Source of the DNA: a virus
Virus record (IMG/VR): IMGVR_UViG_3300025030_000014
Coordinates: 1-63,715 of that record
Length of the DNA stretch: 63,715 bases
Reading direction: 5' to 3' (one strand)
Numbering within the stretch: position 1 is the stretch's first letter; every line of letters starts with the position of its first letter. Shown in pieces: positions 22,410 through 41,849 of the stretch. The notes under the pieces are model-generated. The model saw nothing but the letters and a program-made list of their open reading frames with translations, had not been told where the DNA came from and did no database searches. Made by a program: the position numbers and the translations under genes.

Positions 22410-22814
22410 ATGAAAAGCTTTAAAGACTCTGTTGGCGCACGTGTAGATAACAAAGTAGAAGTCCTCGCTACGTTTGACTTCTATGAAGTGGAGACTACTG
22501 AAGAAGCTATTACCCTCTTTGGTGAGGCTTCTGTCGTAGCCCTCATCAATCGCTCTTACATCCAAGGTCAGCAGAACCTTGCACGTGAAGCTTGTAAAAA
22601 AGACGGCGAAGGCAAGAAGAGTGAAGGGGAGATCCAGACCCTTATTACTAACTACAAGCCTGGGGCTTCTGTCACTCGCTTCAGTATCAAGAACTACCTC
22701 GCTCTCTTCAATGCCGCTGTTGAAGCTGAGAAGTACGAGATTGCTAAAGCCGCTGCTGCTATCTACCGTGATGGCAGTCCTGAGGAAGCTTTCAACTTCC
22801 TGCTGGAGAACTAA
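22410..22814 (+). CDS. Helical early protein, unknown
   Basis: The start is the ATG at 22410 (MKSFKDSVGARVDNKVEVLA), 9 bases after AGGAG. An in-frame ATG at 22338 overlaps the regulatory repeats and is unlikely. The 134-residue product is helical and Ala/Glu-rich and lacks catalytic motifs. It stands alone in its own control unit with two hairpins after it, which suggests high or separate expression. Confidence 0.6.
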   Translation: MKSFKDSVGARVDNKVEVLATFDFYEVETTEEAITLFGEASVVALINRSYIQGQQNLAREACKKDGEGKKSEGEIQTLITNYKPGASVTRFSIKNYLALFNAAVEAEKYEIAKAAAAIYRDGSPEEAFNFLLEN

Positions 22815-22822
22815 TCCTCTAG

Positions 22823-22871
22823 GGTTAGTAACCAGCTCGACCTAACTCTCCTCTCGCTTGAGTTACTAACC
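22823..22871 (+). terminator. 10-bp stem-loop downstream of the 22410 gene
   Basis: GGTTAGTAAC (22823-22832) pairs with GTTACTAACC (22862-22871) around a 29-base loop. A stronger hairpin follows 2 bases later. Confidence 0.55.
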
Positions 22872-22873
22872 TA

Positions 22874-22913
22874 GGCGGGTAGTAAGAATCTTTGCCGGTA
22901 CTTACTACCCGCC
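22874..22913 (+). terminator. Perfect 13-bp stem-loop
   Basis: GGCGGGTAGTAAG (22874-22886) pairs with CTTACTACCCGCC (22901-22913). GAAATTT follows, so the U-run is weak. With the preceding hairpin it closes the 22410 transcription unit. Confidence 0.6.
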
Positions 22914-22974
22914 GAAATTTAGAAATAAAAGTGAGTGAGTGAGTGAATGTTTCAAATGTTCCACCTAGTACAAC

Positions 22975-23660
22975 TCAGGGATACAAGTAAATAGTTCTTT
23001 ATCCCTGTAGAAGCACAGCTTGCCCACCTATGAAAATGAGAGAGTGACAACGAGTGCCACTTAGCGATACTGATAGACGCGGTGAAGGGTGCACAAGCTA
23101 ATCTCTCAAGGGAAACCCGTATGGTGAATCTCCTCAAAGTCGGCGAAAGCTTCTAGTAGAGACTGAAATCCCTTCCTACAGCGTAAGCCTAGAGAAGGTC
23201 AGTAGAGTCATTCTGGTCGAAATCCAGCTGCTATGCCCACGCCGAGCGAAGCCCCCTTGTAAAATAGGTGTGAATCCTACATGACAAACAATCCGTTATA
23301 TGCGGAAAAGGGGAACGTGTAGAGACTAGACGGGGAGGAGTTAAGGAAGTAAAAGGCGCACTCAAGAAGAGTGTCAGCCTAGCTGGAATAATGCTACTTC
23401 TAAGCTCAAGGCATAGTCCAGACTACAAACACTATGTGAAGACAGGGATTCGACACAAGAGTATTGAATAGGAATATAAAGTAGGCTAGTCCGAAACAGA
23501 AACCTTAGTAGACTCAACTGTGGCTCGGCGTGTTGGTTAGCTAGTGACAGCGAAAGCTGTAGTGGTAAGAGTGGTAACTCAATGAACGGTGGTTCAATGA
23601 CGGGGTTATACTCCCCTAGGAGTTCACCAGACCAGCACCTCAGTGGTATATCAGGGGTAG
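22975..23660 (+). ncRNA. Structured RNA with group I intron-like catalytic core
   Basis: No gene fits this stretch, but group I intron sequence elements do. An R-like element AGAGACTAGACGG lies at 23321-23333 and an S-like element AAGGCATAGTCC at 23408-23419. GACTA (23324-23328) and TAGTC (23414-23418) can form helix P7. A hairpin CACTC-AAGAA-GAGTG (23359-23373) sits in the P8 position between them. Upstream, CAAGGGAAACCC (about 23107-23118) resembles element P, and CAGGGATA/TATCCCTG (22976-22983/23000-23007) could be P1 or P2. After S there are further hairpins, for example GACAGC-GAAA-GCTGT near 23547. The splice sites and the interrupted exon were not identified. The end points given are approximate. 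Confidence 0.65.
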
Positions 23661-23667
23661 CTATTAC

Positions 23668-23743
23668 AAGGGCGAATGTTCCAAGGTTGGCGAACGAGTC
23701 TCCAAAACTTGTTGGCTAGGTTCGATTCCTAGCGTCCTTGCCA
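23668..23743 (+). tRNA. tRNA-Trp (anticodon CCA) with encoded 3' CCA
   Basis: This is 76 bases with acceptor AAGGGCG/CGTCCTT, T arm CTAGG-TTCGATT-CCTAG, encoded CCA end (23741-23743) and anticodon arm CGAGT-CTCCAAA-ACTTG, giving anticodon CCA at 23702-23704. The loop CTCCAAA is identical to that of bacterial tRNA-Trp. The D arm is irregular (GTTC/GAAC stem overlapping the anticodon stem, A at position 8), so it may be poorly functional or specialised. Confidence 0.8.
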
Positions 23744-33104: not shown

Positions 33105-33271
33105 TGGACTGTGAAGACTTAACAGATAAATCTATTAAATATTGCTCTACTTGCTATTGGAAAGATGGTTGCAAATGTGTAATTCATTTTAAAGTAGTTA
33201 CCATTGTTACAATAGCCTGTAAAAGCTATATACGTTCTATGAAAGATTTACTGGGAGTATCTAATGGCTAG
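33104..33271 (+). CDS. Small Cys-rich gene inserted between the polymerase halves
   Basis: The ATG at 33104 overlaps the previous stop (TAATG), and the frame runs to TAG at 33269-33271. The 55-residue A+T-rich product has YCSTCYWKDGCKC and ends with a basic helix, suggesting a zinc-binding peptide. It overlaps the second polymerase ATG (33264). It separates the two polymerase parts and may be a mobile insert. Confidence 0.5.
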   Translation: MDCEDLTDKSIKYCSTCYWKDGCKCVIHFKVVTIVTIACKSYIRSMKDLLGVSNG

Positions 33272-35171
33272 TAAGTGGATAACAGAACAGCAACGACCCG
33301 ACTTTAATTGGAATCAATTCCACCAGTACTCAGGACTTGATAGCTGCAACACCCTAGAAATCTGCCTCTCTCAACTCCCGCTACTCAAGCAACGCAAGGT
33401 AGAAGCTATATTCCAGCGTGAGATGGATCTGTGCTATCCGCTTATCTCTATAGAGCTAAAGGGGATGTTGATAGATCAGAGTTGTAGAGGAAAGATAAAC
33501 GCAGAGCTTCAAGCGCAGATAGACAAGTGGCAACTATTCCTCACAGAACTAGCTGGCACTCTCAACGTCAACTCCCCCGATCAGATGAAGTCCTATCTAT
33601 TCGGGCAACTCAAGCTCCCTAAGAGGGTTAAAGATGGCAAACTATCGACAGATGAGGATGCGCTACTATCACTCATGCACTTGCAGCCAGCCCTTATTAA
33701 AACTATCCTCATTCTCCGAGGACTCAAGAAGAAGCAATCCTTTTGTAATAAGAGATTGTCAGATGACGGGAGGGTACGTACCACTTTCAAACCTGCCGGG
33801 ACGCTTACTGGGCGACTTTCTTCATCCAAATCTATCACTGGCACAGGGGACAACCTACAGACAATCATGAAAGAACTACGTGAGTTCTTCATCTGCGACC
33901 CTGGCTATATCCTCATCCAAGTTGACTACGCCAAAGCAGAGAGCTGGGTAGTGGCATATTTGGCTAAAGATGAGAAGATGATAGCGGCGTTGCAAGGGGA
34001 GGACTTTCATAGTACTAATGCCTCAGCAATACTTGGAAAGCCAGTCACTAAGGCGAATTATGGGGATAGACAATTAGGAAAGAAGATCTCTCATGCCTGT
34101 GTAACGGGTGATTGTGAAGTTTATACTCCTTTGGGTTGGATGTGCTTTGAGGAGTATATTAAACATCAAGGAGTTATAGTAGTTACAGACCCAATCAGAA
34201 GGGAAGAGTGGGTAGAAGTTCCTTCTGCTGTTCACTCCTATGATTATTCTGGGGATATGTATAGATTTAGGATGGGAAGTCAGGAACAGTTTGTAACTCC
34301 AGAACATAAGATGCTAGTCTATGATTACATGGGCAGACCTGTTGTCCTAACTGCTGAAGACTTGGCTAACTCTGATGGTTACGTAACTGACGATCATGCA
34401 AGTATTCACTGGAATATTGAGCAATTTACTGGAAAGGTCTACTGTGTAACTACCTCATCTGGATTCTTTACTATTCGTTATAATGGAAAAGTATCCATCT
34501 GTGGAAATAGTAACTACGGTATGTCCGAGTTTCAAATGCAACTTGACCTTGCAAAAGAGGGATATTCCTTCACCAAGACAGAGTGTAGGGAACTTATAGC
34601 TGCATACTTCAAAGCCTATCCGAAGATCAAGCAGAATTACCACAATTGGATAGAGGAGTGTCTACGGACTACCCGCACCCTAGTTACTCCCTTTGGCCGC
34701 AAAGTAACATTCTGGGACTTTTGGAGTAATAGGCTGCTTAACCAGAGCTATGCTTTCATCCCACAATCCACTGTCGGAGATATGACTAACCAAGCTTTGT
34801 TGAATGTCTACAATACTCTGCCTCATGTAGACATTCTTCTCCAAGTCCATGACTCCTTGGTAATGCAGGTGAAGCTGGAGGATTATACTCCTGAGCTACT
34901 TGCTCAAATCAAGAAGTGCATGTCAGTTCCTCTCACCATCAAAGGCTGCACGATAGATATTCCTGTAGATCTCGAAGTCGGCTGGAATTGGTATAAGCTG
35001 GTGGATGTAGAGGTTATGGATGAGGTGCTTCTTAGACTAAAACAGAAGTATCCCTTCATGCCTATTGATGCTGATGAGTACTTGACTATTCGTCAAGAAG
35101 TCTTCTCCACAATCATGCTTGAACACAAACTTGCTAAAGAAGCAGCTAAGGCTGCGAAGGAGAGTATATGA
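33264..35171 (+). CDS. DNA polymerase A, C-terminal part (Exo III and polymerase), with intein
   Basis: This 635-residue product begins with the rest of the exonuclease domain (Exo III: HQYSGLDS), then the palm, fingers and thumb of a family A polymerase: VDYAKAESWVV (motif A), KKISHA...SNYGMSEF (motif B, interrupted) and LLQVHDSLV (motif C, HD). Residues 279-415 form an intein. The mature extein would be 498 residues. It replicates phage DNA, presumably after assembling with the upstream product that carries Exo I and II. Confidence 0.9.
   Translation: MASKWITEQQRPDFNWNQFHQYSGLDSCNTLEICLSQLPLLKQRKVEAIFQREMDLCYPLISIELKGMLIDQSCRGKINAELQAQIDKWQLFLTELAGTLNVNSPDQMKSYLFGQLKLPKRVKDGKLSTDEDALLSLMHLQPALIKTILILRGLKKKQSFCNKRLSDDGRVRTTFKPAGTLTGRLSSSKSITGTGDNLQTIMKELREFFICDPGYILIQVDYAKAESWVVAYLAKDEKMIAALQGEDFHSTNASAILGKPVTKANYGDRQLGKKISHACVTGDCEVYTPLGWMCFEEYIKHQGVIVVTDPIRREEWVEVPSAVHSYDYSGDMYRFRMGSQEQFVTPEHKMLVYDYMGRPVVLTAEDLANSDGYVTDDHASIHWNIEQFTGKVYCVTTSSGFFTIRYNGKVSICGNSNYGMSEFQMQLDLAKEGYSFTKTECRELIAAYFKAYPKIKQNYHNWIEECLRTTRTLVTPFGRKVTFWDFWSNRLLNQSYAFIPQSTVGDMTNQALLNVYNTLPHVDILLQVHDSLVMQVKLEDYTPELLAQIKKCMSVPLTIKGCTIDIPVDLEVGWNWYKLVDVEVMDEVLLRLKQKYPFMPIDADEYLTIRQEVFSTIMLEHKLAKEAAKAAKESI
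34098..34508 (+). mobile_element. 137-residue mini-intein in DNA polymerase motif B
   Basis: It begins with Cys (CVTGDCEVYTPLGW, block A), has a block B with VTPEHKMLV (T..H), and a block F KVYCVTTSSG before the end NGKVSICGN, followed by Ser of the extein. The last residue is Asn and the next is Ser, as required. The residue before the final Asn is Gly rather than the usual His. There is no room for a homing endonuclease. The DNA is more A+T-rich than the flanking extein. Confidence 0.85.
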
Positions 35172-40911: not shown

Positions 40912-41175
40912 ATGGAAGAGCAGAAAGAAGTAACCCTAGAGGATATTGCAAAGGAATGCGTAGGTAAGATAACCTTCGACATCAACATGAGAAGTGGCTT
41001 CGGTGCAGCTTACCGCATGATAGATCCGAATATGAAAGAGGAGATTCTACGCGGGTGGGTGTTTAGTGTGAAAGAGGTGTTGGAGAAGAGTGGACTTAGT
41101 GTGGCTAAAGAGGTTCCTGTTGTGTTGCCGAAGCCTGCTACTATGCCTTCCCCTGTGCAAATTGGAGGGAAGTGA
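40912..41175 (+). CDS. Small helical protein, unknown
   Basis: This 87-residue protein (MEEQKEVTLEDIAKECVGKI) starts immediately after the previous stop, behind TAACTAAGGAG. It has an acidic helical N-terminus and a Pro/Val-rich end. Confidence 0.45.
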   Translation: MEEQKEVTLEDIAKECVGKITFDINMRSGFGAAYRMIDPNMKEEILRGWVFSVKEVLEKSGLSVAKEVPVVLPKPATMPSPVQIGGK

Positions 41176-41849
41176 TGCAAGAATTTTGTAAGGTAGAGGG
41201 CTGTGGTAAACGTGCTATTAAGAAGGATTGCTGCGATCAGCACTATAGGCATTTTATTCGTTATGGTGAAGCACGTACAATTATTCGAGGAGGCGTTAAT
41301 GAGTACATTACTGAGGGTGATATTACTAAAATAGTACTTAAAGATCAGTTTGGAAAGGTATTAAACTATGCTTTAATTGACACAGAGGATGTAGCTTTGG
41401 TAAAGGATGCCCTCTGGAAATATAATACATCTACAGGATATGTAGGAACCAGCAATACTGGAATATTCCTGCATAAAGTAATTCTACAAACCAAAGGTAA
41501 TGTAGATCATATCAATAGAATACCTAGGGATTGTAGGAAGTCTAATCTACGACAAGCAACACAATCTCAGAATATGATGAATTGTGATTTACGTAGAGAT
41601 AACAGATCTGGAATGCGTGGAGTTAAGCCCATGTCTTGTGGGAATAAATGGAGAGCCATACTATGGTATCAAGGTAAAGAAATATTTATTGGCTCTTTTG
41701 AATGCCGAATAGCCGCTATGTGGGCATATAATCAAAAGTCACTAGAACTATTTGGTGAGTTTGCTTACCAAAATAAGATTGAAGACGTTAAACCATTGAG
41801 TGCTAAGGCTATTAAAGCCTCTAGTAGGAGAGTTTATAATGAGTATTAA
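41175..41849 (+). CDS. HNH endonuclease with AP2-like DNA-binding domain
   Basis: The start is ATG 41175, overlapping the previous stop (TGATG). The 224-residue product has an N-terminal zinc knuckle (FCKVEGCGKRAIKKDCCDQH), a central HNH core VDHINRIPRDCRKSNLRQAT (H-N-N pattern), and a C-terminal AP2-like domain RGVKPMSCGNKWRAILWYQG...IGSFE. This architecture is typical of mobile phage homing endonucleases. The gene is A+T-rich and sits between G+C-richer genes, consistent with insertion. It may serve the group I-like element or act alone. Confidence 0.8.
   Translation: MQEFCKVEGCGKRAIKKDCCDQHYRHFIRYGEARTIIRGGVNEYITEGDITKIVLKDQFGKVLNYALIDTEDVALVKDALWKYNTSTGYVGTSNTGIFLHKVILQTKGNVDHINRIPRDCRKSNLRQATQSQNMMNCDLRRDNRSGMRGVKPMSCGNKWRAILWYQGKEIFIGSFECRIAAMWAYNQKSLELFGEFAYQNKIEDVKPLSAKAIKASSRRVYNEY

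Follow-up and report, generated by a model that had tools for sequence, protein, structure and literature searches.

The window analyzed in the present study, a 63.7-kb virus record (IMG/VR IMGVR_UViG_3300025030_000014) taken at its full length, contains a stretch of about 850 bases with no credible gene between the stop of a gene at 22410-22814 and a tRNA-Trp, noted downstream by the original prediction and intact according to ARAGORN. For this region the prediction had proposed a group I intron-like ribozyme spanning 22975-23660. By folding and comparison a ribozyme with P2, P3, P4, P5, P6, P7, P8 and P9 all present was recognized at 23022-23569 on the plus strand; its 3' limit is predicted at about 23569 (P9 and the putative omega-G), and the remaining 23570-23660 of the proposed span is only predicted 3' flank. 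From guide to predicted omega-G the element measures 548 nt, or 689 nt if the 5' splice site given below is correct, and an ORF check of the window revealed no credible frame over it. The features are as follows, 'members' being the eight aligned members of a subclass with a branched P2 domain, described below:

22858-22868, plus strand: 5' arm of a predicted exon hairpin, TTGAGTTACTA, pairing with 23572-23582
22878-22880, plus strand: predicted, tentative 5' splice site GGU^ (after U22880), pairing with guide GCC
23022-23024, plus strand: predicted internal guide sequence GCC, providing G for the U-G splice-site pair
23025-23028, plus strand: P2 5' strand CACC, pairing with GGTG 23123-23126; paired in all eight members
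23037-23043, plus strand: P2a 5' strand TGAGAGA, pairing with TCTCTCA 23102-23108; two-sided changes at five of seven pairs in eight members
23110-23118, plus strand: P2b hairpin GG-GAAA-CC (GGGAAACC); both counted pairs change two-sidedly among members
23129-23133, plus strand: P3 5' strand TCTCC, pairing with GGAGG 23334-23338; four of five pairs covary (covariance-model alignment)
Directly before 23140, plus strand: J3/4, TCAAA
23140-23145, plus strand: P4 5' strand TCGGCG, pairing with CGCCGA 23240-23245 (independent domain fold)
23146-23239, plus strand: P5 domain, enlarged to 94 nt with J4/5 and J5/4 counted in (local fold)
23246-23318, plus strand: P6 domain, GCG/CGT with extension; P6 pair covaries in relatives
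23324-23328, plus strand: P7 5' strand GACTA within R, pairing with TAGTC 23414-23418; guanosine-binding helix
23339-23413, plus strand: P8 domain and J8/7, closing helix at the expected place
23422-23569, plus strand: P9 domain (ACTAC/GTAGT); its last bases are GGTAAG, G23569 being the predicted omega-G (local fold)
23572-23582, plus strand: 3' arm of the predicted exon hairpin, TGGTAACTCAA, pairing with 22858-22868
23668-23743, plus strand: intact tRNA-Trp(CCA) (ARAGORN), 98 nt 3' of the predicted 3' splice site

Several other traits of the window were observed. Two adjacent inverted repeats (22819-22876 and 22873-22914) follow the upstream gene; their arms are alike (GGTTAGTAAC, GGGTAGTAAG) and neither has a T-run. 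A GTGAGTGAGTG-like motif occurs in 13 copies with at most one mismatch, 1.6 being expected; copies lie at 22931-22949, 22338, 9184, 8883, 8256, 9359 and elsewhere, several in A/T-rich context and one directly upstream of P2 of the ribozyme, and the motif is possibly a promoter or leader element. A free-standing HNH_3 endonuclease gene (41172-41849) is a further mobile-element trait of the phage, and the Pfam matches of a DNA polymerase A (33264-35171) fall into two separate stretches, the insert between them having, by eye, the look of a small intein that lacks an endonuclease. Neither neighbouring proteins nor a DNA search of phage records brought near relatives of the virus to light.

The R and S elements on which the original prediction was founded were located at 23321-23333 (AGAGACTAGACGG) and 23408-23419 (AAGGCATAGTCC), with P and Q elements upstream, where a P-like element had already been noticed, at 23134-23143 (TCAAAGTCGG) and 23240-23252 (CGCCGAGCGAAGC). 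P7, postulated from R and S, is borne out by the GACTA/TAGTC pairing, three of whose five pairs covary within the subclass, and the P8-type hairpin of about 75 nt enclosed by P7 folds alone (23333-23409, -23.4 kcal/mol by local folding). The core is complete: a P3/P7 pseudoknot in which R and S are conserved, a P4-P6 domain with joiners J4/5, J5/4 and J8/7, and correctly placed P8 and P9, whose end GGTAAG is homologous to GTGGTAAG^ of tRNA-hosted relatives. Every invariant core base of 85 distinct relatives is matched; the sole departure at a nearly invariant base is a C in J5/4, where 83 of the 85 have A. Among the relatives the last P4 pair covaries with a J8/7 base (52 combine T-A with T, 14 G-C with G, and 12 either T-G or C-G with C), and the window, with C-G and C, falls into the third class, while a P6 pair that is C-G in 60, G-C in 17 and T-A in five relatives is G-C here. 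The folding z of the element region is -4.3.

Under lax settings the Rfam group I model RF00028 aligned end to end with 23082-23438, but with a score of 30 bits and an E of 1.5e-5 for 1 kb it stayed below the gathering score of 50 bits and nothing was reported at the Rfam cut-off, which is a database threshold and no biological criterion. A covariance model (R1) trained on 33 hosted phage and prophage introns, from which the window was excluded, gave a single match in the whole window, at 23124-23427, with 85.7 bits and E 9.2e-17, E-values from the tool used being rough. The prediction had named the lack of any hit to group I models as one part of its refutation; what was found is a sub-threshold Rfam hit and a strongly positive one to the family-specific model. 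The low Rfam score could be taken to mean that R and S match by chance within a structured leader that is not group I at all, yet an undisputed tRNA-Leu intron (L002) also goes unreported at the same cut-off, and the R1 result already refutes this very improbable explanation. The element is almost certainly a group I ribozyme. As judged from sequence it is filed as a ribozyme of the intron family and not as a proven intron, because no tRNA gene, ORF or Rfam host is interrupted.

The absence of an obvious host exon, remarked upon originally, is uncommon among relatives, which are referred to here by L-numbers, that is, loci of related introns in other stretches. GTGTAGAGACTAGACGG (R with a GTGT prefix, 17 nt) has copies in at least 119 IMG/VR stretches, nearly always within introns. 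Split tRNA genes, mostly called tRNA-Leu(UAA), enclose 94 of 123 cores (ARAGORN intron mode), and the remaining cores that were read lie mostly in open frames, e.g., capsid-like genes, or are truncated where the contig stops. The window and L003 are conspicuous in that their cores lie in neither a tRNA gene nor an ORF. ARAGORN detected no split tRNA around the window element, and Rfam shows no other RNA that it could interrupt. A pattern scan of genome_contigs yielded coincidental matches only, as did most matches of two viral scans.

The pattern common to the window and L003 led to L123 and L124, and then to L125-L130 and others. Together they form a subclass, defined in the present analysis by a CACC/GGTG P2 around P2a and P2b, which the window possesses. 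Its P2 domain, missing from ordinary members of the family, consists of a guide GNN, CACC, a GAAAAATG stretch, P2a, the GAAA hairpin P2b and GGTG, the latter immediately before P3. In the alignment of eight members 95.3% of cells were paired, compared with 77.9% after shuffling, and two-sided changes numbered 41 against 11.8, where P2a is favoured by construction, its arms having been picked for complementarity, and P3, P4, P6 and P7 were taken from the known fold; sliding the partners by one to three columns abolished the signal. L126, L129 and L160 lie in tRNA genes (tRNA-Leu and tRNA-Met introns), and comparison of sequences shows the intact P3-P9 catalytic core and branched P2 of the window to be shared with introns of phage tRNA-Leu and tRNA-Met genes. 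Orphans outside tRNA genes are L003, L123, L124, L128 (with two elements), L163 and the window, and intact tRNAs are situated just downstream of the window, L124 and L128.

Some members show additional peculiarities. In L130 (minus strand, about 1400-2450) a tRNA-Leu-like 3' half comes after a subclass intron and the 5' half seems eroded; directly upstream lies an intronless tRNA-Leu. Permuted tmRNA genes (L003:3544-3830 and L126:12168-12417) are present on contigs also bearing the subclass. In the P2 region of the second L128 element, 72 nt (L128:5942-6013) match positions 2135-2206 of the bacterial 23S rRNA model with 50.4 bits, barely over the cut-off and unreported in a second run with other settings; blastn against E. 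coli genomes gave no match to the stretch. To the eye it looks like the L1 stalk, so that the RNA of this phage may imitate the site bound by L1.

Splice sites of orphans were predicted by the rules that the guide lies just before P2, as GNN does in nine of nine subclass members examined, and that the 3' end lies at the homologue of P9-GGUAAG. In the window the site after U22880 (GGGU^) scored highest of three GGU candidates within 320 nt under the guide rule, but it lies unusually far (142 nt) upstream of the guide and its P1 is backed by three to five pairs only. The intron ends are thus predicted at U22880 and G23569, with low confidence for the former. Two other P1 pairings were rejected: CACUU 23058-23062 with GGGUG 23087-23091 (intron 23063-23569), since the subclass alignment identifies this stretch as an insertion inside P2a, and CAAGU 22984-22988 with GCUUG 23018-23022, which violates the rule that the guide abuts P2. 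A frame of about 63 codons that can be read by eye across the junction 22988|23570 continues into tRNA-Trp and probably arose by chance. Taking the 3' flank as tRNA-like (ARAGORN, relaxed threshold) had no Rfam support, and GOLLD and ROOL, suggested by the tRNA-adjacent place, had no match in Rfam.

The predicted flanks of the window form a stem of 11 contiguous pairs, a length reached by 0.4% of random 25x25-nt pairs (p 0.004); by duplex energy p is 0.05-0.07 (25-40 nt flanks), and the 5' arm 22858-22868 pairs alternatively with 22819-22833 in another inverted repeat. In L003 and L163 the flanks make long terminator-like hairpins with T-rich tails, whose loops hold the intron; for 30-nt flanks the duplex p is 0.006 in L003 and 0.004 in L163, L003 losing significance at 15 nt and L163 showing p 0.05 at 40 nt. 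Their exon ends, CAU^, recur in the tRNA-Met intron L160, all three with a GUG guide. L123, L124 and L128 displayed no convincing exon hairpin at the predicted sites. Insertion into a hairpin loop, as deduced from sequence, is well supported for L003 and L163 and only suggestive for the window. A hairpin of four or more pairs begins at the omega-G of four orphans out of six, the window included, and at that of none of 58 hosted introns, a pattern noticed post hoc with a significance of about 0.005, given that 14% of random G positions do the same. A hairpin of 4-5 bp at omega-G may hide the 3' splice site in these four.

How the element came to lie here, and what it does, can be read in several ways. 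The preferred reading, itself an evenly balanced proposition, is that a tRNA-type group I intron was relocated to an intergenic hairpin and still splices. Such an intron would have left its tRNA context for the non-coding stretch between the upstream gene and tRNA-Trp, either by reverse splicing into a hairpin loop mimicking an anticodon loop and subsequent copying into DNA, or by loss of its former tRNA exons. Its transcript would fold, bind guanosine in P7 and be cut after an exon ending in U; joining of the flanks would leave tRNA-Trp with a pseudo-anticodon stem, a hairpin, in its leader. No empty site turned up. The wider claim that phages carry intergenic group I introns in terminator-like hairpin loops by way of anticodon-loop mimicry is doubtful as yet. 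Of the options originally offered, a free-standing ribozyme, a trans-acting RNA or an intron in an unrecognized RNA gene, the comparative evidence favours the last, in the form of an intron in an intergenic hairpin loop like L003 and L163, over the other two.

Somewhat improbable in our estimation, the orphans could instead be repurposed RNAs which keep a group I fold but no longer splice, either free-standing structured RNAs or cleavage-only ribozymes in tRNA leaders, with the 3' site locked in a small hairpin. The omega-G hairpins fit this, although the pattern is post hoc and of only moderate significance, as do the lack of a nearby 5' splice site in the window, the position of the window, L124 and L128 just upstream of intact tRNAs and the stretch resembling the L1 stalk in the second L128 element; the clear splice-site geometry in L003 and L163 and the guide's G, kept in position, argue against it. 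Less probable again is a relic, a tRNA intron without present function whose tRNA exons have decayed. L130, with its retained tRNA-Leu 3' half and seemingly eroded 5' half, could represent such a state and the J5/4 change in the window points the same way, but for all the high divergence the core bases and the covarying helices have stayed intact, which drift would not preserve, and apart from tRNA-Trp itself the window flanks bear no tRNA similarity (Rfam, E up to 10).

Among known systems, Clostridioides difficile possesses an allosteric group I ribozyme with a c-di-GMP-II riboswitch in a 5' leader (mentioned in PMC3984707). Both this and the window element are group I ribozymes in a non-coding leader, although the latter has no Rfam riboswitch upstream and precedes a tRNA instead of an mRNA. 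The nearest relatives detected for the window element interrupt tRNA genes of phages. Known bacterial and phage tRNA introns (IC3-type: tRNA-Leu(UAA), tRNA-fMet, Azoarcus tRNA-Ile; PMC3984707) resemble it in P, Q, R, S, the predicted 3' end GGUAAG^ and core covariations, whereas it lacks a tRNA host, has much expanded P5, P6, P8 and P9 and bears a branched P2 with P2a and P2b. Phage protein-gene introns like those in capsid-like genes (L029, L077) share the core and the GGU^/GCC-type guide pairing tentatively predicted for it, but they and those described elsewhere (PMC12363816, PMC11878797) interrupt ORFs and the window element interrupts none. Lariat-capping GIR1 ribozymes, considered as a likeness only, likewise combine a group I-like fold with a role other than that of an ordinary intron, but they are known only from eukaryotic rDNA introns (PMC4167309) and the window element resides in a phage.

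Group I introns have been catalogued by the genes they interrupt. As hosts in bacteria and phages tRNA, rRNA and protein genes are given, and the word 'intergenic' is absent (PMC3984707); phages with many group I introns inside genes are known (Jug phage introns, PMC12363816; Bastillevirinae, PMC11878797). A recent database takes only introns with annotated exon boundaries and therefore leaves out intergenic elements by design (PMC11835236). A search of largely open-access literature yielded no paper describing group I introns within hairpins between genes. Should phages indeed carry such introns in terminator-like hairpin loops, splicing would rebuild the hairpin, and ribozyme activity could thereby be linked to termination or to the processing of tRNA leaders. 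Orphans with a full core and relatives still residing in tRNA genes make intron movement testable, e.g., reverse splicing into hairpin loops, as well as the question whether a ribozyme can persist when it is not needed to restore a host gene.
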